A stretch of DNA of 64,000 nucleotides. Source: Citrifermentans bemidjiense Bem (GTDB taxonomy: Bacteria; Desulfobacterota; Desulfuromonadia; Geobacterales; Geobacteraceae). Below are positions 4,953 to 59,045 of this stretch, in pieces (within the stretch, counting starts at the first letter, position 1; each line of letters opens with the position of its first letter). The notes beneath the pieces are model-generated. The model was not told the DNA's origin and did not search any database. It was given only the letters and a program-made list of their open reading frames with translations. The stretch is from the NCBI RefSeq assembly GCF_000020725.1, contig NC_011146.1:682001-746000 (forward strand). The letters run 5' to 3'. The position numbers were made by a program, and so were the translations under genes.

Positions 4953-5220
4953 GGAATAGTAAAGTCTCGCTGGGAATTGTGCAACTCCGATTTGGAATTA
5001 GCAATTCCGGCTCGGGTTTAAGCAATTCTGATTCGGGTTTATGCTATTCCGATTCGAGTTTATGCTATTCCGATTTGGATTTATGCAATTCTGATTTGAG
5101 AATTGTTAAATTGATTTGGAAATAGTTAATTCGGGTTGGGAATAGTCTATTTCGATTTGGAAATTGTAAAGTTCGGTTCGGAATAGTGCTATTTGATTTG
5201 GAATAGTGAAAAGCTGCTCC
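4953..5220. repeat. Degenerate ~21-bp tandem repeat array, about 13 units
   Basis: Units start near 4953, 4973, 4994, 5015, 5036, 5057, 5078, 5099, 5119, 5139, 5160, 5180 and 5200, giving a period of 20-21 bp, close to two helical turns. Consensus is roughly GGAATTATGCAATTCCGATTT; many units hold an imperfect inverted repeat (GGAATT...AATTCC or GAATAG...CTATTT) followed by a CGATTT or TGATTT linker. The array is AT-rich against a GC-rich background and sits between the convergent ends of hppA and glgA. It contains no credible coding frame. I do not recognise the family. Confidence 0.8.
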
Positions 5221-31792: not shown

Positions 31793-33715
31793 TTAGGGCT
31801 TGTCCTCGGTCACCGACTTGGGCTTTTCCTTGAGGGCCTGCTCCAGGTTGATCGGCTCGCTGGTCTTCACCGCGTCGCTGAAGGCGTTTCTCTGGTTGAC
31901 GGAAACCTCGGCCATGTCGCGCGCGTCCTTGATTATGCGCGGGGTGAGCATGATCAGCAGGTTGGTCTTGTCCCGGGTGGTCTTCTTGGTCTTGAAAAGC
32001 CATCCCAGGAGCGGGATGTCGCCCAGAAGCGGGATCTTGCTTTCCGTAACCTGGTCCGTGTCCTGAATCAGTCCGCCGATGATGACCGTGTCGGTGTTCT
32101 TCACCACCACGGAGGTCTTGGCCGAGCGCTTGGTGCTTCCGAGGTTGGGGTTGGTGGCGGTGCCGAAATCCTTCACCGCGGAGATTTCCTGGTAGATGTC
32201 GAGCTTTATGTACTCGCCCTCGCTGATCTGGGGCTTGATCTTCAGGATGATACCGGTGTCTTTCCTCTCGATCGACTGCTGCGAGAGGCCGGTGGAGGTG
32301 AGGTTGGTGCCGGAGAGGAAGGGGACGTTCTCGCCCACGAAGATCTCGGCTTCCTTATTGTCGCTGGTCATGATGTTGGGCGTGGACAGGACGTTCAGCG
32401 CGCCGTTACTCTGCAGCGCCTTGAGCGTTGCGGGGAACAAGGCCACGCCGGCGTCCGGTGGCGTGATGCCCAGCTGTCCGGCGAGGGTCAGGGTGCCGGT
32501 CAACCCGGCTACGGCACCGAAGGGATCGAAGGTTCCGACGGTAGAGAGCGTGCCGTTGGAAGCTCCGGTGACCACCCCCCATTGCAGGCCGAGTTCCTTC
32601 GCCTTGTTGGCGGAAACCTCGGCGATCATCGCCTGTACGAAGACCTGGCGGCTGCGGCGGTCCAGCTTCTGGATCACCTGCAAGAGGTTCTGGTAGTCGG
32701 TGGGGGAGGCCATGATGACCAGCGAGTTGGTCGACTTGTCGGGGGTGATGGTGATCTTCCCACCCTCGAAGATGGCCTGTTGCGGCGCCGTCGCGGCAGC
32801 GCCCGCAGCGGGCGCCGGCGTGGCCGCCGTACCTTTGAGGAGGCCATCCAGCACCTTGGCGACCTCGGCGGCCTCGGCGTTTTCCAGGTAGTAGACGTTG
32901 ACCTTGCTGCTGGTGGTGGGGGGGACCACGTCGACCAGCGCGATCAGCTTCTTCACGTCCGTCTTGTCCTTGTCGCTGCCGAAGATGATCAGAGCGTTCA
33001 GCCTGTTGTCGGGCACTACGGTCGAGGATGCGGTGTTGGTGGCAGCCGCGCCGGGGGCTCCCCCTTTGGAGGACTTGCCGCTCATCCAGTCCTTGACCAG
33101 CGTCGCCACGCTCTCGGCGGCCGCGTTTTTGAGGAAAACGAGTTCGGCACCCTCGCGCACCTGATCCGTGTCGATGTGCTTGAGGATCCCCAGCACCTTC
33201 TGGATGTTGAATGCTGAGTCGACCACGAGGATCATGTTCGCCGCGCCGAAGGCGGAGATCTGGCCGTCCTTGGAGACCAGCGGCTGCAGGAAGGTCACCG
33301 CGTCCTGTGGGGCGACGTGCTCCAGCTGGATCACCCTGGCTTGGTAGCTGTCGTTCACGACGGAGCGTTCACCGTCGGAGAGGATCCTCATCCCCGACTG
33401 CCTGGCGCTGGACGTGGGGACTATCTTCAGCACCTTTCCCGCCGGTACCACGGTGAACCCCTTGAGTTCCAGGACCGAGGTGAAGACGTTGTACGCCTCC
33501 TCGTTGGAGAGCTTCGCCGGGGAGAACACCGAGATCTTTCCCTTCACCCTGTCGTCCATGATGAAGTTCTTCCCGGTCAGGTCGCTGACAAATTTCACCA
33601 TAGTGGCGATATCCACGTCGGTGAAGTTCAGCACTACACCCTTGGCGAACACCAGGGGCGGTGCGGCGAGCAGGAACATGAGCATGGCTATGATGCGCGC
33701 ACATCTTCTTTTCAA
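31793..33715 (-). CDS. gspD: Type II secretion outer-membrane secretin GspD
   Basis: 640 residues: signal peptide (to about FAKG, residue 25), N0 domain (VVLNFTDVDIATMVKFVSDL), N1-N3 domains separated by alanine/proline-rich linkers, and the secretin core with SNGALNVLSTPNIMTSDN, VPFLSG and VVKNTDTVIIGGLIQD. It forms the outer-membrane channel. The apparent start is a TTG at 33715 with a G-rich ribosome-binding site; ATG codons follow within the signal peptide. It is separated from gspC by the four-helix-bundle cassette. Confidence 0.95.
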   Translation of the reverse strand: MKRRCARIIAMLMFLLAAPPLVFAKGVVLNFTDVDIATMVKFVSDLTGKNFIMDDRVKGKISVFSPAKLSNEEAYNVFTSVLELKGFTVVPAGKVLKIVPTSSARQSGMRILSDGERSVVNDSYQARVIQLEHVAPQDAVTFLQPLVSKDGQISAFGAANMILVVDSAFNIQKVLGILKHIDTDQVREGAELVFLKNAAAESVATLVKDWMSGKSSKGGAPGAAATNTASSTVVPDNRLNALIIFGSDKDKTDVKKLIALVDVVPPTTSSKVNVYYLENAEAAEVAKVLDGLLKGTAATPAPAAGAAATAPQQAIFEGGKITITPDKSTNSLVIMASPTDYQNLLQVIQKLDRRSRQVFVQAMIAEVSANKAKELGLQWGVVTGASNGTLSTVGTFDPFGAVAGLTGTLTLAGQLGITPPDAGVALFPATLKALQSNGALNVLSTPNIMTSDNKEAEIFVGENVPFLSGTNLTSTGLSQQSIERKDTGIILKIKPQISEGEYIKLDIYQEISAVKDFGTATNPNLGSTKRSAKTSVVVKNTDTVIIGGLIQDTDQVTESKIPLLGDIPLLGWLFKTKKTTRDKTNLLIMLTPRIIKDARDMAEVSVNQRNAFSDAVKTSEPINLEQALKEKPKSVTEDKP

Positions 33716-33734: not shown

Positions 33735-33765
33735 CAGATAAAGGCAGATAAAGATAGAGATAAAG
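33735..33765. repeat. AGATAAAG-type repeat, left flank of four-helix-bundle cassette
   Basis: Short tandem units (CAGATAAAGG, CAGATAAAGA, TAGAGATAAAG) end 1 bp before the stop of the four-helix-bundle gene. They are the inverse of the CTTTATCTTTATC array at 34189-34225 on the other side. Confidence 0.8.
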
Positions 33766-33766
33766 A

Positions 33767-34135
33767 CTAATCGGAATGCATTTCCTTCAGTGCCAATACA
33801 ATCTTGTTGATTTCCTGGTACAGCTGAGAAAGGCGGTCATCGAGTGAATCCGCTTCTTCGCTTTTAAGGTAACCGACCCTTTTGGAATATTCGAGGTGGC
33901 TTTGTGTTTCGGTTAAAGAGCCACGTGCATGATAATAAAAGTTGACCTTGTCAAGGAGATGCTTTCTACCATAAGCTTCGGCTATGTTGGCTGATATGCT
34001 CAAGGCCGACCGTCTAATCTGGGAAGTCAGTCCGTAATCTTCTTTCTTAGGAAGGTGTTCCGTGGCAGAGTAAACCTGCTCGGCCACCGCCATCGCGTGT
34101 TGCCAAACCGGCATATCCTTGAAGCTACGGTACAT
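33767..34135 (-). CDS. Four-helix-bundle protein (avd/23S rRNA intervening-sequence protein family)
   Basis: 122 residues beginning MYRSFKDMPVWQHAMAVAEQ, the typical opening of this family, with the central SQIRRSALSISANIAEAYGR and YYHARGSLTETQSHLEYSKR signatures. Members occur as open reading frames in 23S rRNA insertions, as accessory (Avd) proteins of diversity-generating retroelements, and as scattered orphan genes; their orphan role is unknown, and the family is basic and may bind nucleic acid. No reverse transcriptase is in the window. It lies within the gsp operon between gspC and gspD, has lower GC than its neighbours, and is bracketed by inverted AGATAAAG repeats, which points to insertion as a unit. 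Confidence 0.9.
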   Translation of the reverse strand: MYRSFKDMPVWQHAMAVAEQVYSATEHLPKKEDYGLTSQIRRSALSISANIAEAYGRKHLLDKVNFYYHARGSLTETQSHLEYSKRVGYLKSEEADSLDDRLSQLYQEINKIVLALKEMHSD

Positions 34136-34188
34136 GGCATCCTCGGCGCTGATATTCTTGGCTTACCTCTTCCTCCCTGTCTTGCCTT

Positions 34189-34225
34189 GCCTTTCCTCAA
34201 TCTTTATCTTTATCTTTATCTGTTT
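34189..34225. repeat. GCCTTTCCTCA + CTTTATC array, right flank of four-helix-bundle cassette
   Basis: This 37-bp stretch matches 58985-59021 with two mismatches. Its reverse complement resembles the array on the left flank at 33735-33765. Confidence 0.85.
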
Positions 34226-34235
34226 CACCTCTGCC

Positions 34236-35126
34236 TCACCTGATGTCGTAATTGAAAGTAGTCGGCTGCCCGTCGCGGATCAGGTCGAGTTTGATCCTGC
34301 TCTGCCCCTTGAGCGAGGCGAAGGACTGGATCGCCTTCTCAGGAGAATCGATCGGGAAGTCGTTCATCCTTAAAAGCACGTCGCCGTTTCTGATGCCGAT
34401 GGTCCCGAAGATCCCCTGCGGCTTCACCTCGGAGGCGCGGAACCCCTCGACCTTACCGTCCTTCATGCTGGGCAAAAGGCGCGCGTCGGTCATGGCCTGC
34501 CCTATGTTGTCCAGCGCGGCGTTCAAGGCGCGCTGGTCCACGACGTAGTTGCCGGATCCGGTCGGCGCTGCCAGTCCGCCAGATGCGGCGGAGGGGAGGG
34601 CGGGTGCCGGTTGCGCCGCCGCTGCGGCTGCCGCGGTAGGCGTCAGGATCTTCACCCTCTTGCCGCCGATGAGGATCTCAGCCACGTCCTTTTTCACCGA
34701 AACGAGCGGGCCTGCGGAAAACACTGTCTCTCCCAGCCTGAACACCCGCTCCTCGTGGGTGGACCCCTTCTGCACCAGGGCAAAGCTTTCCCGGAAGGAG
34801 CCGACCGCCGTTCCCAGCAGGGTGAGGTCCCCGACCGACGGGGCGACGGGTGCTGCCGCCTGCCCCGGAGCCGCCGTCGGCTGCAGGATGGCGCTGAGCT
34901 TCCCTTGGGTCGCCTTGCCGAAGAGCGCGCGTTCCAGGATCGGCGCGAAAGCAAGCAGGTCCTGGACGTCTCCGGGGGCCTGGGCCGCAGCTTGCGCCTG
35001 TTTCTGGGCCGTCCTGGGATAAAGCCCGGAGATCTTGAAGCTGAGCAGGTCCGCGGCGATAAGTGCCGAGACCGCGATGAGCGCAAGGCCAAGCGATATG
35101 TTGAGGGGGAGAATCCAGCGCGGCAT
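34236..35126 (-). CDS. gspC: Type II secretion protein GspC
   Basis: 296 residues: short cytoplasmic tail, one transmembrane helix (about 6-26, LPLNISLGLALIAVSALIAA), the periplasmic homology-region domain (LTLLGTAVGSFRESFALVQK), an alanine-rich linker and a C-terminal PDZ domain (FGTIGIRNGDVLLRMND). GspC links the inner-membrane platform to the secretin. I start at the ATG at 35126 with AAAGGG upstream. It is the first gene of the gsp operon and has its own promoter. Confidence 0.9.
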   Translation of the reverse strand: MPRWILPLNISLGLALIAVSALIAADLLSFKISGLYPRTAQKQAQAAAQAPGDVQDLLAFAPILERALFGKATQGKLSAILQPTAAPGQAAAPVAPSVGDLTLLGTAVGSFRESFALVQKGSTHEERVFRLGETVFSAGPLVSVKKDVAEILIGGKRVKILTPTAAAAAAAQPAPALPSAASGGLAAPTGSGNYVVDQRALNAALDNIGQAMTDARLLPSMKDGKVEGFRASEVKPQGIFGTIGIRNGDVLLRMNDFPIDSPEKAIQSFASLKGQSRIKLDLIRDGQPTTFNYDIR

Positions 35127-35164
35127 GAAAGACCCTTTGTCTGCTGAGTAGTTGAAGCTGTGCG

Positions 35165-35193
35165 AATATATTAGATGACTTTGAGTTATGCAA
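35165..35193 (-). promoter_or_regulatory. Promoter of the gsp operon
   Basis: On the minus strand TTGCAT (35193-35188), 17 bp, TATATT (35170-35165), about 40 bp upstream of the gspC start. Confidence 0.7.
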
Positions 35194-35219
35194 CAAAAAA
35201 GGGGGCGCAATGGCGCCTC
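35193..35219 (-). terminator. Leftward terminator just upstream of the gsp promoter
   Basis: Minus strand: GAGGCGC, loop, GCGCC, then CCC and six T. It would end a short leftward transcript coming from about 35270-35440, which has no recognised gene. Confidence 0.5.
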
Positions 35220-46904: not shown

Positions 46905-46972
46905 CACCCTCCCTAGCCCCTGCTTAGCGGCCTTTGCCAGCCCCTAGTCCCCAGTCCCTAGCCCCTGCCTAA
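46905..46972. repeat. Low-complexity CCCTAGCCCCTG repeat
   Basis: CCCTAGCCCCTGCTTAGCGG is followed after ~27 bp by a near copy CCCTAGCCCCTGCCTAACGG, with CCCCTAGTCCCCAGT between. It fills the gap between yjbQ and the next gene. Confidence 0.6.
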
Positions 46973-51565: not shown

Positions 51566-53398
51566 ATGGGCGGATCTTTTCTGGAGCGGGTGGCGCATGA
51601 GGTGCTGATCGGCGACGGCGCCATAGGGACCATGCTTTATGCGAAGGGCGTGGCGCTAGACGCCAACTTCGAGCACCTGAACCTGGTGCGGCCGCAACTG
51701 GTGCTCGACCTGCACGCCGAGTACCTGGCGGCGGGAGCGCAGGTGATCGAGACCAACACCTTCGGCGCCAACTACGCCAAGCTCTCCGCCATCGGCATCG
51801 GCGGCAAGGTGGCCGACATCAACCGCCAGGGGGCGATCCTCGCCCGCCGCGCCGCTAAGGTGCGCGACGTCTTCGTCGCCGGTTCCATGGGACCCATGGG
51901 TCGCGGCAAGCAGGAGATGAGCGCCGACCAGGTGCGCGACTCCTTCCGCCTCCAGGCAGCGGCCCTCGCCGAGGGCGGCGTGGATCTCCTCATCCTGGAA
52001 ACCTTCTCCGAACTGGACGAGCTGGAAACGGCGCTCTCTGCTGCCCGCGAGACCGGGCTCCCCGTGGTGGCGAACCTTGCCTTCGGGGAAGGTTCGAGGC
52101 TTGCCGGCGGCATCGAGGCCGAGGACGCGGCTCTGAGACTCGCCGCGGCCGGCGCGAGCCTCGTGGGCGCCAACTGCGGCGCCGGCCCCCTGGAGCTCCT
52201 CGCCACCCTGAAGCGGATCGCTGCGGTCACGGACCTTCCCCTGGCCGCCTACCCCAACTCCGGCTTCCCCGAATACGTCGACGGGCGTTACATCTACCGG
52301 ACCACCCCCGACTACTTCGCCGCCCGGGCCGAGGAAATGGTCGCGGCAGGCGCCGTCTTGGTGGGAGGGTGCTGCGGCACCACCCCTGAGCATATCCGGG
52401 TCATGGCACAGCGCCTTAAGGGAGCCCGTCCCGCAGCGCGCGTAGCCGTCGGCGCCGTGAGCCGCACCCCCGCCTCGGAAAAGGCCAAGACTGCAGCCTC
52501 CGGTTTTCTCGACCTCTGGGGGAAGGAGATGGTGGTCACCGTCGAGCTTGACCCACCGAAGGGGCTCGACTGCAGCAGGATACTGGCCGGGAGCCGCGCA
52601 CTCAAAGAGGCCGGTGCCGACGCCATCAACCTCGCCGAAAACCCGCTGGCGCGCGTGCGCATGGGGAACCTGGCGCTCGCCTCCCTGATCCGGCGCGATG
52701 TCGGGATCGAGGTCATCGCCCATATCACCTGCCGCGACCGCAACTTGATCGGGCTTCAATCCGACCTGATGGGGGCGAGCCTTCTGGGAGTGAGCTCCAT
52801 CCTCGCCGTAACCGGTGACCCGGCGAGCCTCGGCGAGGAGGCCGGCGCCTCCTCCGTCTTCGACCTCAACTCCTTCACGCTGATCAAGCTCTTGAGCGAC
52901 CTGAACCGCGGCGTCAACGCGCTGGGAAACCCCATCGGCGCCGGCACCGGATTCACCATCGGCGCCGCCTTCAATCCCAACACCCAGAAGATGGAGGTGC
53001 AGGTGGCGCGGCTCGCGAAGAAGGTGGCCAACGGCGCCTGCTTCGCCCAGACCCAGCCCATCTACGACCTGGAGCGGTTCGAGCAGATGATGGAGCAGAC
53101 CGCGCACCTGGGGATACCTATCCTACCCGGCGTGCTCCCCTTGGTGAGCGGCCGCAACGCCGAATTCCTGCACAACGAAGTCCCCGGCATCACCATTCCT
53201 GACGGCATAAGGGCTCGGATGGCGGGTAAGACGGGGGAGGAAGGGGTACGCGAGGGGCTGGCCATCGCCCGCGAATTCATCGAGGCGACTATGGGGAGGG
53301 TGGGTGGATTCTACCTGATACCCCCCTTCGGGAAGTACGAGATCGCCGTAGAGTTGGTGAAGTTCATAAAATCAAGGGCGGAACACAGAGGTCACTGA
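51566..53398 (+). CDS. Bifunctional homocysteine S-methyltransferase / methylenetetrahydrofolate reductase
   Basis: 610 residues. Residues 1-290 are a homocysteine methyltransferase domain with the zinc cysteines in VGANCGAGP and VGGCCGTTPEHI. From about 315 a MetF-like domain follows (VTVELDPPKGLDCSRILAGS and IGAAFNPN), which reduces methylene-THF. The fusion makes methyl groups and passes them towards methionine; bifunctional proteins of this layout (YitJ-like) occur in several anaerobes. The last residues (EHRGH) are encoded by the CCTCTGTG-family repeat, so the native C-terminus may have been altered. Follows the pyrophosphatase by one base. Confidence 0.93.
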   Translation: MGGSFLERVAHEVLIGDGAIGTMLYAKGVALDANFEHLNLVRPQLVLDLHAEYLAAGAQVIETNTFGANYAKLSAIGIGGKVADINRQGAILARRAAKVRDVFVAGSMGPMGRGKQEMSADQVRDSFRLQAAALAEGGVDLLILETFSELDELETALSAARETGLPVVANLAFGEGSRLAGGIEAEDAALRLAAAGASLVGANCGAGPLELLATLKRIAAVTDLPLAAYPNSGFPEYVDGRYIYRTTPDYFAARAEEMVAAGAVLVGGCCGTTPEHIRVMAQRLKGARPAARVAVGAVSRTPASEKAKTAASGFLDLWGKEMVVTVELDPPKGLDCSRILAGSRALKEAGADAINLAENPLARVRMGNLALASLIRRDVGIEVIAHITCRDRNLIGLQSDLMGASLLGVSSILAVTGDPASLGEEAGASSVFDLNSFTLIKLLSDLNRGVNALGNPIGAGTGFTIGAAFNPNTQKMEVQVARLAKKVANGACFAQTQPIYDLERFEQMMEQTAHLGIPILPGVLPLVSGRNAEFLHNEVPGITIPDGIRARMAGKTGEEGVREGLAIAREFIEATMGRVGGFYLIPPFGKYEIAVELVKFIKSRAEHRGH

Positions 53399-53503
53399 GG
53401 TCACAGAGGAAGGCGAAAAACTTTTGGTTTAACCCAAAAACGCCTTTGCTTTTGGATTTTCCTCTGTGTACCTCTGTGTCCTCTGTGGTGAGTGCCTTTA
53501 AAG
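53384..53503. repeat. CCTCTGTG-family inverted repeat
   Basis: Left arm ACACAGAGG-TCACTGAGG-TCACAGAGGA (53384-53410) and right arm TCCTCTGTG-TACCTCTGTG-TCCTCTGTGG (53459-53488) can pair across a ~48-nt loop. Related sequence lies at 56403-56459. The left arm includes the stop codon of the upstream gene. Confidence 0.85.
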
Positions 53504-56402: not shown

Positions 56403-56459
56403 GCCTTTCCTCAGATTCTCCTCTGTGAACCTCTGTGTCCTCTGTGGTGAAAGCCTTTA
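56403..56459. repeat. CCTCTGTG-family repeat with GCCTTTCCTC lead-in
   Basis: GCCTTTCCTCA, then TCCTCTGTGAACCTCTGTG-TCCTCTGTGGTGAAAGCCTTTA. Ends 8 bp before the DksA/TraR-family stop. The tail GTGGTGA..GCCTTTA matches that at 53484-53501. Confidence 0.85.
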
Positions 56460-58822: not shown

Positions 58823-59045
58823 AACCCCCTAGAATCAGATAGAGATAAAGATAAAGATAAAGGTGAACCAACCCCCTAGAATCAGATAGAGATAAAGGTA
58901 AAGATAAAGGTGAACCAATCTGGTGAGTATCTGCTTTTTAGGCCTTTCCTCTATCTTTATCTCTATCTCTATCTGAGTTTTTTAGCCTTTCCTCAATCTT
59001 TATCTCTATCTCTATCTGTTTTTTCAATCTTTATCTGTTTTTTAC
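58823..59045. repeat. AGATAAAG/CTTTATC repeat cluster
   Basis: A 47-bp unit (58823-58869) containing CAGATAGAGATAAAG is duplicated with one mismatch at 58870-58916. After ~25 bp come two CTTTATC units in opposite orientation (58942-58978 and 58985-59021), 43 bp apart, then a partial third. The halves are inverted relative to each other and can form a long hairpin. The second CTTTATC unit matches 34189-34225 with two mismatches. Confidence 0.88.

Follow-up and report, generated by a model that had tools for sequence, protein, structure and literature searches.

Why does a gene for a small four-helix-bundle protein sit between gspC and gspD of a type II secretion operon in Citrifermentans bemidjiense Bem, with opposite-facing arrays of one short repeat on either side? 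We analysed a stretch of 64,000 nucleotides that carries this locus (NC_011146.1, positions 682,001 to 746,000; hereafter the window, to which coordinates refer) from a genome that is a single contig of 4,615,150 bases. The protein belongs to the 23S-IVP family, and we call it and its relatives IVPs. Inverted arrays around IVP genes are a general pattern, not a Geobacter peculiarity, and the sequence of the repeat unit is tied to the branch of the IVP. With somewhat more confidence than doubt, we read the gene and its flanking inverted arrays as one heritable unit that resembles a REPtron, pairing a four-helix protein that is not a transposase with a repeat of its own. The locus comprises the following features.

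33767..34135, minus strand: four-helix-bundle gene, 23S-IVP family, 122 amino acids (PF05635, 3.8e-35; TIGR02436, 8.6e-35; four helices, pLDDT 95.4)
33735..33765, plus strand: arm downstream of the IVP gene, inward-reading AGATWR hexamers (CTTTATCT... on the gene's strand), from the repeat search
34196..34222, minus strand: arm upstream of the IVP gene, inward-reading AGATWR hexamers, from the repeat search
34236..35210, minus strand: gspC, upstream neighbour (PF11356 T2SSC, 1e-17)
31793..33715, minus strand: gspD, downstream neighbour (PF00263 Secretin, 3.2e-51)

The genes gspC, IVP and gspD all lie on one strand, with GspE, GspF and GspG family proteins encoded beyond GspD, and the gap between gspC and gspD is mostly taken up by the IVP gene and its AGATWR arrays. 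The string AGATAAAG occurs three times on the plus strand within 33736-33765 and three times on the minus strand within 34202-34221. The content of guanine plus cytosine (GC) is 0.47 in the IVP gene, compared with 0.617 in gspD, 0.631 in gspC and 0.617 in the window. The original prediction, made from the letters of this stretch, was of a four-helix-bundle gene between gspC and gspD, lower in GC than its neighbours, bracketed by opposite-facing arrays of one short repeat that recurs in the window without the gene. The PF05635 and TIGR02436 matches, the T2SSC and secretin neighbours, the composition (47% in the gene against 62% around it) and the inverted AGATWR arrays bear this out, as does a gene-less block of the repeat at about 58843-59036.

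The window IVP is a member of PF05635, its sole Pfam match (120.8 bits against a cut-off of 33.8), and reaches 119.3 bits against TIGR02436, 'four helix bundle protein' (cut-off 24). Its NCBIfam matches are to four-helix and related models only, and the Pfam and NCBIfam searches gave no match to a HuH-type tyrosine transposase. The nearest solved folds to the four-helix AlphaFold2 model are two members of the same family, 2gsc (TM 0.88/0.92) and 2rld (TM 0.77/0.86), followed by Avd (4dwl, TM 0.80/0.90). The Avd model of NCBIfam matches the window IVP weakly (1.9e-4, 21.7 bits against a cut-off of 80). Structures have been solved for the 23S-IVP family, for which we know of no function.

We found 16 exact matches to AGATAAAG in the window, where 0.79 are expected and none of 100 shuffles reaches 16. 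The fuller unit is AGATWR (AGATAA, AGATAG, AGATTG, AGATTA), and AGATWRAG has 28 matches against 4.16 expected. Genome-wide there are 216 matches to AGATWRAGATWRAG and one to the pattern read backwards. Among the matches listed, which below 1.0 Mb appear to be complete for both strands, AGATWR forms 13 clusters in that part of the genome: 12 inward-facing inverted pairs, one single-armed cluster and no outward-facing pair. The 12 pairs are the IVP element itself (span 476) and 11 gene-less elements spanning 67-186 bp. The arms of the gene-less element in the window, as found by the repeat search, are listed here.

58837..58909, plus strand: gene-less element, first arm, AGATWR array
58949..59036, minus strand: gene-less element, second arm, AGATWR array

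Both arms of this element (58823-59018) are doubled as bigger blocks (47 bp in 2.0 copies and 43 bp in 1.9 copies), which look as if they had been enlarged in concert. Intergenic direct repeats of 6 to 42 nt have been recorded in G. bemidjiensis by Aklujkar et al. 2010 (PMC2996986).

A check proposed with the original prediction, that AGATAAAG arrays should bracket other four-helix-bundle genes, fails when taken literally: the other two above-cut-off IVP genes of the source genome have no AGATAAAG array within about 3 to 4 kb on either side. Each is bracketed instead by 7-nt units of its own, one lying inside inverted GTTCAAC-type arrays and the other inside CAATTGA-type arrays, and we rejected AGATAAAG as a universal signature of IVP cassettes for this reason.

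A search of 48 genomes of the bacterial family yielded 88 IVP genes for analysis, taken from 90 rows of at least 40 bits after leaving out G010:C114, which is a fragment, and the second part of a gene that is split in G020. For each gene, the 350 bases upstream were aligned with the reverse complement of the 350 bases downstream, and a score of at least 15 was taken as the threshold. Inverted flanks reach it in 71 of the 88 IVP genes, compared with 14 of 282 control open reading frames (ORFs) of the same loci; in direct orientation the counts are 10/88 and 25/282. The hardest controls were 39 small genes with a gap on either side, of which 7 pass the threshold inverted and 10 direct, and when the left flank of one IVP is aligned with the right flank of an IVP from another genome, 37 of 853 do so. 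In the 71 scoring cases, the median distances of the two arms from the gene are 30 and 26 nt. Scoring IVPs occupy 39 of 48 distinct chromosomal sites, defined by clustering on immediate neighbours (an earlier clustering had chained 54 of the 88 loci into one group). The test misses some real arms, as the gspC-gspD IVPs of G015 and G021 score below 15 yet have visible mixed-AGATWR arms.

The same layout extends to many phyla. A wide set was taken from the best 80 of at least 577 relatives in GTDB species genomes, a choice that leans to the subfamily of the query, and 78 of its 80 loci have enough flank. Inverted flanks score at least 15 in 51 of these 78 IVPs; among control ORFs the count is 2 of 156, and among mismatched flank partners 8 of 773. 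Of the 122 scoring genes in the family and wide sets together, 97 have a dominant repeat lag of 7 nt. Whole-genome searches gave 30 loci, of which 29 were read and 17 entered the cross-phylum test; many of the others, and L292 from among the 17, repeat loci of the wide set, and the L292 score is too low to count. We also considered whether arm-poor IVP loci might be insertions in 23S rRNA genes and rejected this, as large-subunit rRNA was detected at none of the 20 such loci tested.

The unit sequence is tied to the IVP branch, with orientation kept at unrelated sites within the family. For family IVPs at different sites, the mean overlap of array 6-mers is 0.013-0.042 when the normalised BLAST bits are below 0.6, and at 0.6-0.8 it is 0.30-0.38 in the same orientation with respect to the gene and about 0.03 when reversed. 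The similarity of array units correlates with that of the IVPs at different sites in the family (Mantel r 0.42, a value reached in none of 5000 permutations). Between phylum-level groups this link is weaker (r 0.138; 0 of 2000 permutations). In the closest cross-phylum pair, an Anabaena IVP (L317) is 68% identical to the Citrifermentans IVP at 418094, and both stand beside CAATTGA arrays. Their best-matching arm is reversed (overlap 0.65 reversed, 0.10 in the same orientation), at a locus with arrays in both directions.

A set of intergenic repeats described by others, those of Xanthomonas (Rehm et al.), was used for a further test. For the GGGAATC repeat, 70 and 75 convergent pairs in two genomes are given in the cited account (PMC4692102). 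An IVP match above the cut-off is present in 32 of 35 genomes of the genus to which a Xanthomonas arboricola locus belongs. Of 30 IVP loci from this set, 25 carry two or more GGGANTN units in sense orientation upstream and in antisense orientation downstream, with no unit reversed; the remainder comprise four with GGGACC arms in the same layout and one narrow miss. Most of these loci are orthologues at a small number of sites and do not amount to 29 independent events. A shifted-position control within the same loci gave 0/180.

Genomes with a cognate IVP tend to hold more copies of the unit, with exceptions. Among 19 genomes of the genus, the five with an IVP at gspC-gspD have the highest AGATWR counts (220, 216, 148, 136 and 89, followed by 51, 49 and 37 in the next genomes). 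In rank tests, uncorrected for phylogeny, of copies with vs without the cognate IVP in these 19 genomes, p is 0.0007 for AGATWR, 0.006 for CAATTGA and 0.023 for GGGRCTR. Xanthomonas genomes were sorted by IVP presence and unit type (the second IVPs of G069, G071 and G083 and the weak one of G075 were left untyped, and the IVP copy of G065 contains a stop); those without a GGGAATC-type IVP hold fewer copies, with p of 0.014, 0.0028, 0.0007 and 0.00015 by four definitions.

How does this association compare with known systems? RAYTs are HuH-type tyrosine transposases that act on palindromes of 20-40 nt. A RAYT transposase with its REP/REPIN repeats constitutes a REPtron (PMC2817692, PMC3116915). 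As in a REPtron, one gene here stands between short repeats in inverted orientation, many copies of the repeat are dispersed between other genes of the genome without it, and the repeat class follows the protein branch. The IVP differs in that it matches only its own four-helix family and in having a repeat built of 6-7 nt units in tandem. The 23S rRNA intervening sequences share the protein family, the inverted repeats and tandem short units beside the gene (hexamers in the window, mostly heptamers in relatives). RNase III excises the Coxiella intervening sequence, which carries tandem heptamers immediately ahead of its S23p gene and is called a selfish element (PMC4990558). Such sequences sit within 23S rRNA, whereas the window element lies between operon genes, and no Rfam family reaches its gathering score anywhere in the window.

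Avd, an accessory protein of diversity-generating retroelements in the account cited (PMC10053308), shares its fold with the window IVP. The latter falls under the Avd cut-off, however, and the source genome (G000) is without a match to RVT_1, as are the array-rich genomes G014, G015 and G025; the array-rich genome G021 has one match, and at least one is present in 7 of the 19 genus genomes. A reverse-transcriptase partner was therefore rejected, and the four array-rich genomes without RVT_1 indicate that an Avd-like retro route is not required. By location the element is no 23S intervening sequence, its protein sets it apart from REPtrons, and it is not a diversity-generating retroelement.

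Short intergenic repeats have also been noted as GGGGA(T/C)T in Nostoc (PMC4692102) and TAACTGA in Beggiatoaceae (PMC4679880). Those of Xanthomonas, Nostoc, Beggiatoaceae and G. bemidjiensis are, like the ones studied here, short tandem arrays between genes, and differ in that the published descriptions, in the passages cited, tie them to no gene. MacGregor suggested, in the cited part of the Beggiatoaceae study, that a repeat-binding protein might itself be a mobile element (PMC4679880). Searches of open-licence PMC papers, preprints excluded, turned up no report that links the 23S-IVP family with short repeat arrays.

In the mechanism that we infer for recognition, the nucleic acid concerned, the copying step and spread at the DNA level, the IVP, which has a crystal homologue forming a five-fold assembly of four-helix bundles, would recognise the arrays of its own unit, whether in DNA or in a nascent single strand, and would promote their copying or retention using host replication or repair enzymes. 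Gene plus arrays would be the full element, and array-only pairs its non-autonomous copies. The 23S rRNA intervening sequences with S23/IVP genes might be elements of this kind that have landed in rRNA, a suggestion for which the heptamers before the Coxiella S23p gene, compared through PMC4990558, are the reason. The original prediction of a small mobile cassette is supported in part, strongly so for its protein, terminal repeats and gene-less copies, which hold more widely than proposed. Support for mobility, which we infer, comes from the recurrence of one protein-repeat pairing at sites that are unrelated and in distantly related bacteria, with no event caught; a fresh insertion at gspC-gspD is not supported.

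Several observations weigh against a REPtron-like pair. Inverted flanks stay under the threshold for 17 of the 88 family IVPs and 27 of the 78 wide-set IVPs, and in ten wide-set genomes searched whole 14 of 29 loci reach 15 (some of these repeat wide-set loci). The two closest cross-phylum pairs share a unit but the matching arm is reversed, so that array orientation is fixed within the family and not established across phyla. All the copy-number tests ignore phylogeny, and individual genomes depart from the trend: G018 has the highest GGGRCTR count of the 48 genomes (266) and no PF05635 match, suggesting that arrays can outlive the gene or spread without it; G025 holds 32 CAATTGA copies without a CAATTGA-type IVP; and G086 and G077 hold 64 and 101 GGGAATC-type copies with no IVP match. 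The analysis, in which the junctions read were those of gspC-gspD, demonstrated no transposition event, no target duplication and no catalytic domain. At gspC-gspD, the identities of IVP and GspD are roughly in step in 4 of 10 pairs of genomes (98/98, 93/94, 84/83 and 84/87%).

In the remaining pairs the IVP identity is up to 7 points lower. Recent insertion at gspC-gspD is not supported, as the divergence of the IVP matches that of GspD, and the gene may thus be ancestral at this site and have been lost several times. Empty gspC-gspD junctions, which the original prediction proposed to look for, do occur, in 14 of the 19 genus genomes. The five IVP-bearing genomes fall in several places on the GspD tree, requiring at least four changes, and since 148 of 500 label shuffles are as low, IVP presence is not clustered on the tree. 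By eye, 7 of the 14 gene-less junctions keep a unit-like scrap such as CTTAATCTGCC (one of them weak) or a related AGGTTR array; gene-less AGGTTR hexamer arrays occupy the junctions of G018 and G024 (L059 and L060). From these comparisons, the IVP gene at gspC-gspD looks old and repeatedly lost rather than freshly inserted.

Could the arms act in RNA instead? They might pair in the transcript to form a stem cut by RNase III, freeing the IVP message from the gsp mRNA, with the other arrays serving as stems for mRNA processing or stability. The gene-in-loop anatomy equals that of 23S intervening sequences such as the RNase III-excised one of Coxiella with its heptamers, and the arms lie inside operons and close against the gene. 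Across 122 arm pairs, however, G-U mismatches are not in excess over A-C mismatches (162 vs 188, at 27 vs 36 sites), giving no sign of selection on an RNA stem; we rejected such selection on this basis, although the arms may still function at the RNA level. This account does not by itself explain why the unit follows the protein branch. We consider it unlikely and favour a REPtron-like pair acting at the DNA level. Alternatively, the IVP may be a domesticated protein that binds the repeats and, by way of the dispersed arrays, controls many operons; the arrays around its own gene would be autoregulatory, and spread would be slow and selected by the host. The intergenic position of the arrays, purifying selection on the IVP (dN/dS, the nonsynonymous-to-synonymous rate ratio, of 0.13 and 0.05 in two pairs with unsaturated dS) and the apparently long retention of the gspC-gspD gene in several lineages are consistent with this. 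A host regulator is at odds with the patchy presence and its four or more changes on the GspD tree, with the low GC of the gene in 160 of 166 cases and with the use in one genome of a different unit for each IVP branch, and we find it rather improbable as well.

A passive association, in which IVP genes land or survive preferentially in array pairs that were already there, the protein being unconnected with the repeats, would fit the commonness of arrays, which flank some control genes (the 14 inverted and 25 direct of 282), and the 266 GGGRCTR copies kept without an IVP in G018. Against it stand the tie between unit and protein branch, which holds at unrelated sites with the orientation fixed, and the large excess of inverted over direct flanks for IVPs only (71 vs 10 of 88); we regard it as very unlikely. 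Short, low-complexity repeats align easily, as the 37 of 853 mismatched flanks in the family illustrate, but the 71/88 and 51/78 set against the control rates refute an artefact of chance or simple sequence, to which we attach a negligible probability.

A broader proposal, which we hold tentatively and with slightly more doubt than confidence, is that bacteria at large carry selfish pairs in which a non-catalytic four-helix protein and a cognate tandem repeat of 6-7 nt co-evolve, the protein recognising its repeat and driving the spread of array-only copies in the genome. Intergenic heptamer arrays such as GGGAATC in Xanthomonas, orphan 'four helix bundle' genes and S23-carrying 23S intervening sequences would then have a common origin. 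Separate reports describe short intergenic arrays in Geobacter, Xanthomonas, cyanobacteria and Beggiatoaceae, with no cause given. Tying their units to branches of one protein family gives both the arrays and the 23S-IVP proteins a testable partner.

Other repeats in the window include an inward-facing inverted pair, CACAGAGGT / TCCTCTGTG, with a 9-nt period in the style of the hexamer element, at 53384-53409 and 53460-53487 and also at 56419-56446. A GGGGCTA-type array at 46937-46965 has the unit CCAGCCCCTAGCCC, which goes with another IVP branch; GGGRCTR has 98 matches in the source genome, and none of the three above-cut-off IVPs there has a GGGRCTR unit. In one stretch with an armless IVP gene (L183, 22-2355), Rfam identifies 33 CRISPR-DR9 repeats. 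Finally, a composite repeat block with periods of 20/21 bp and 41/42 bp occupies 4973-5208 of the window.
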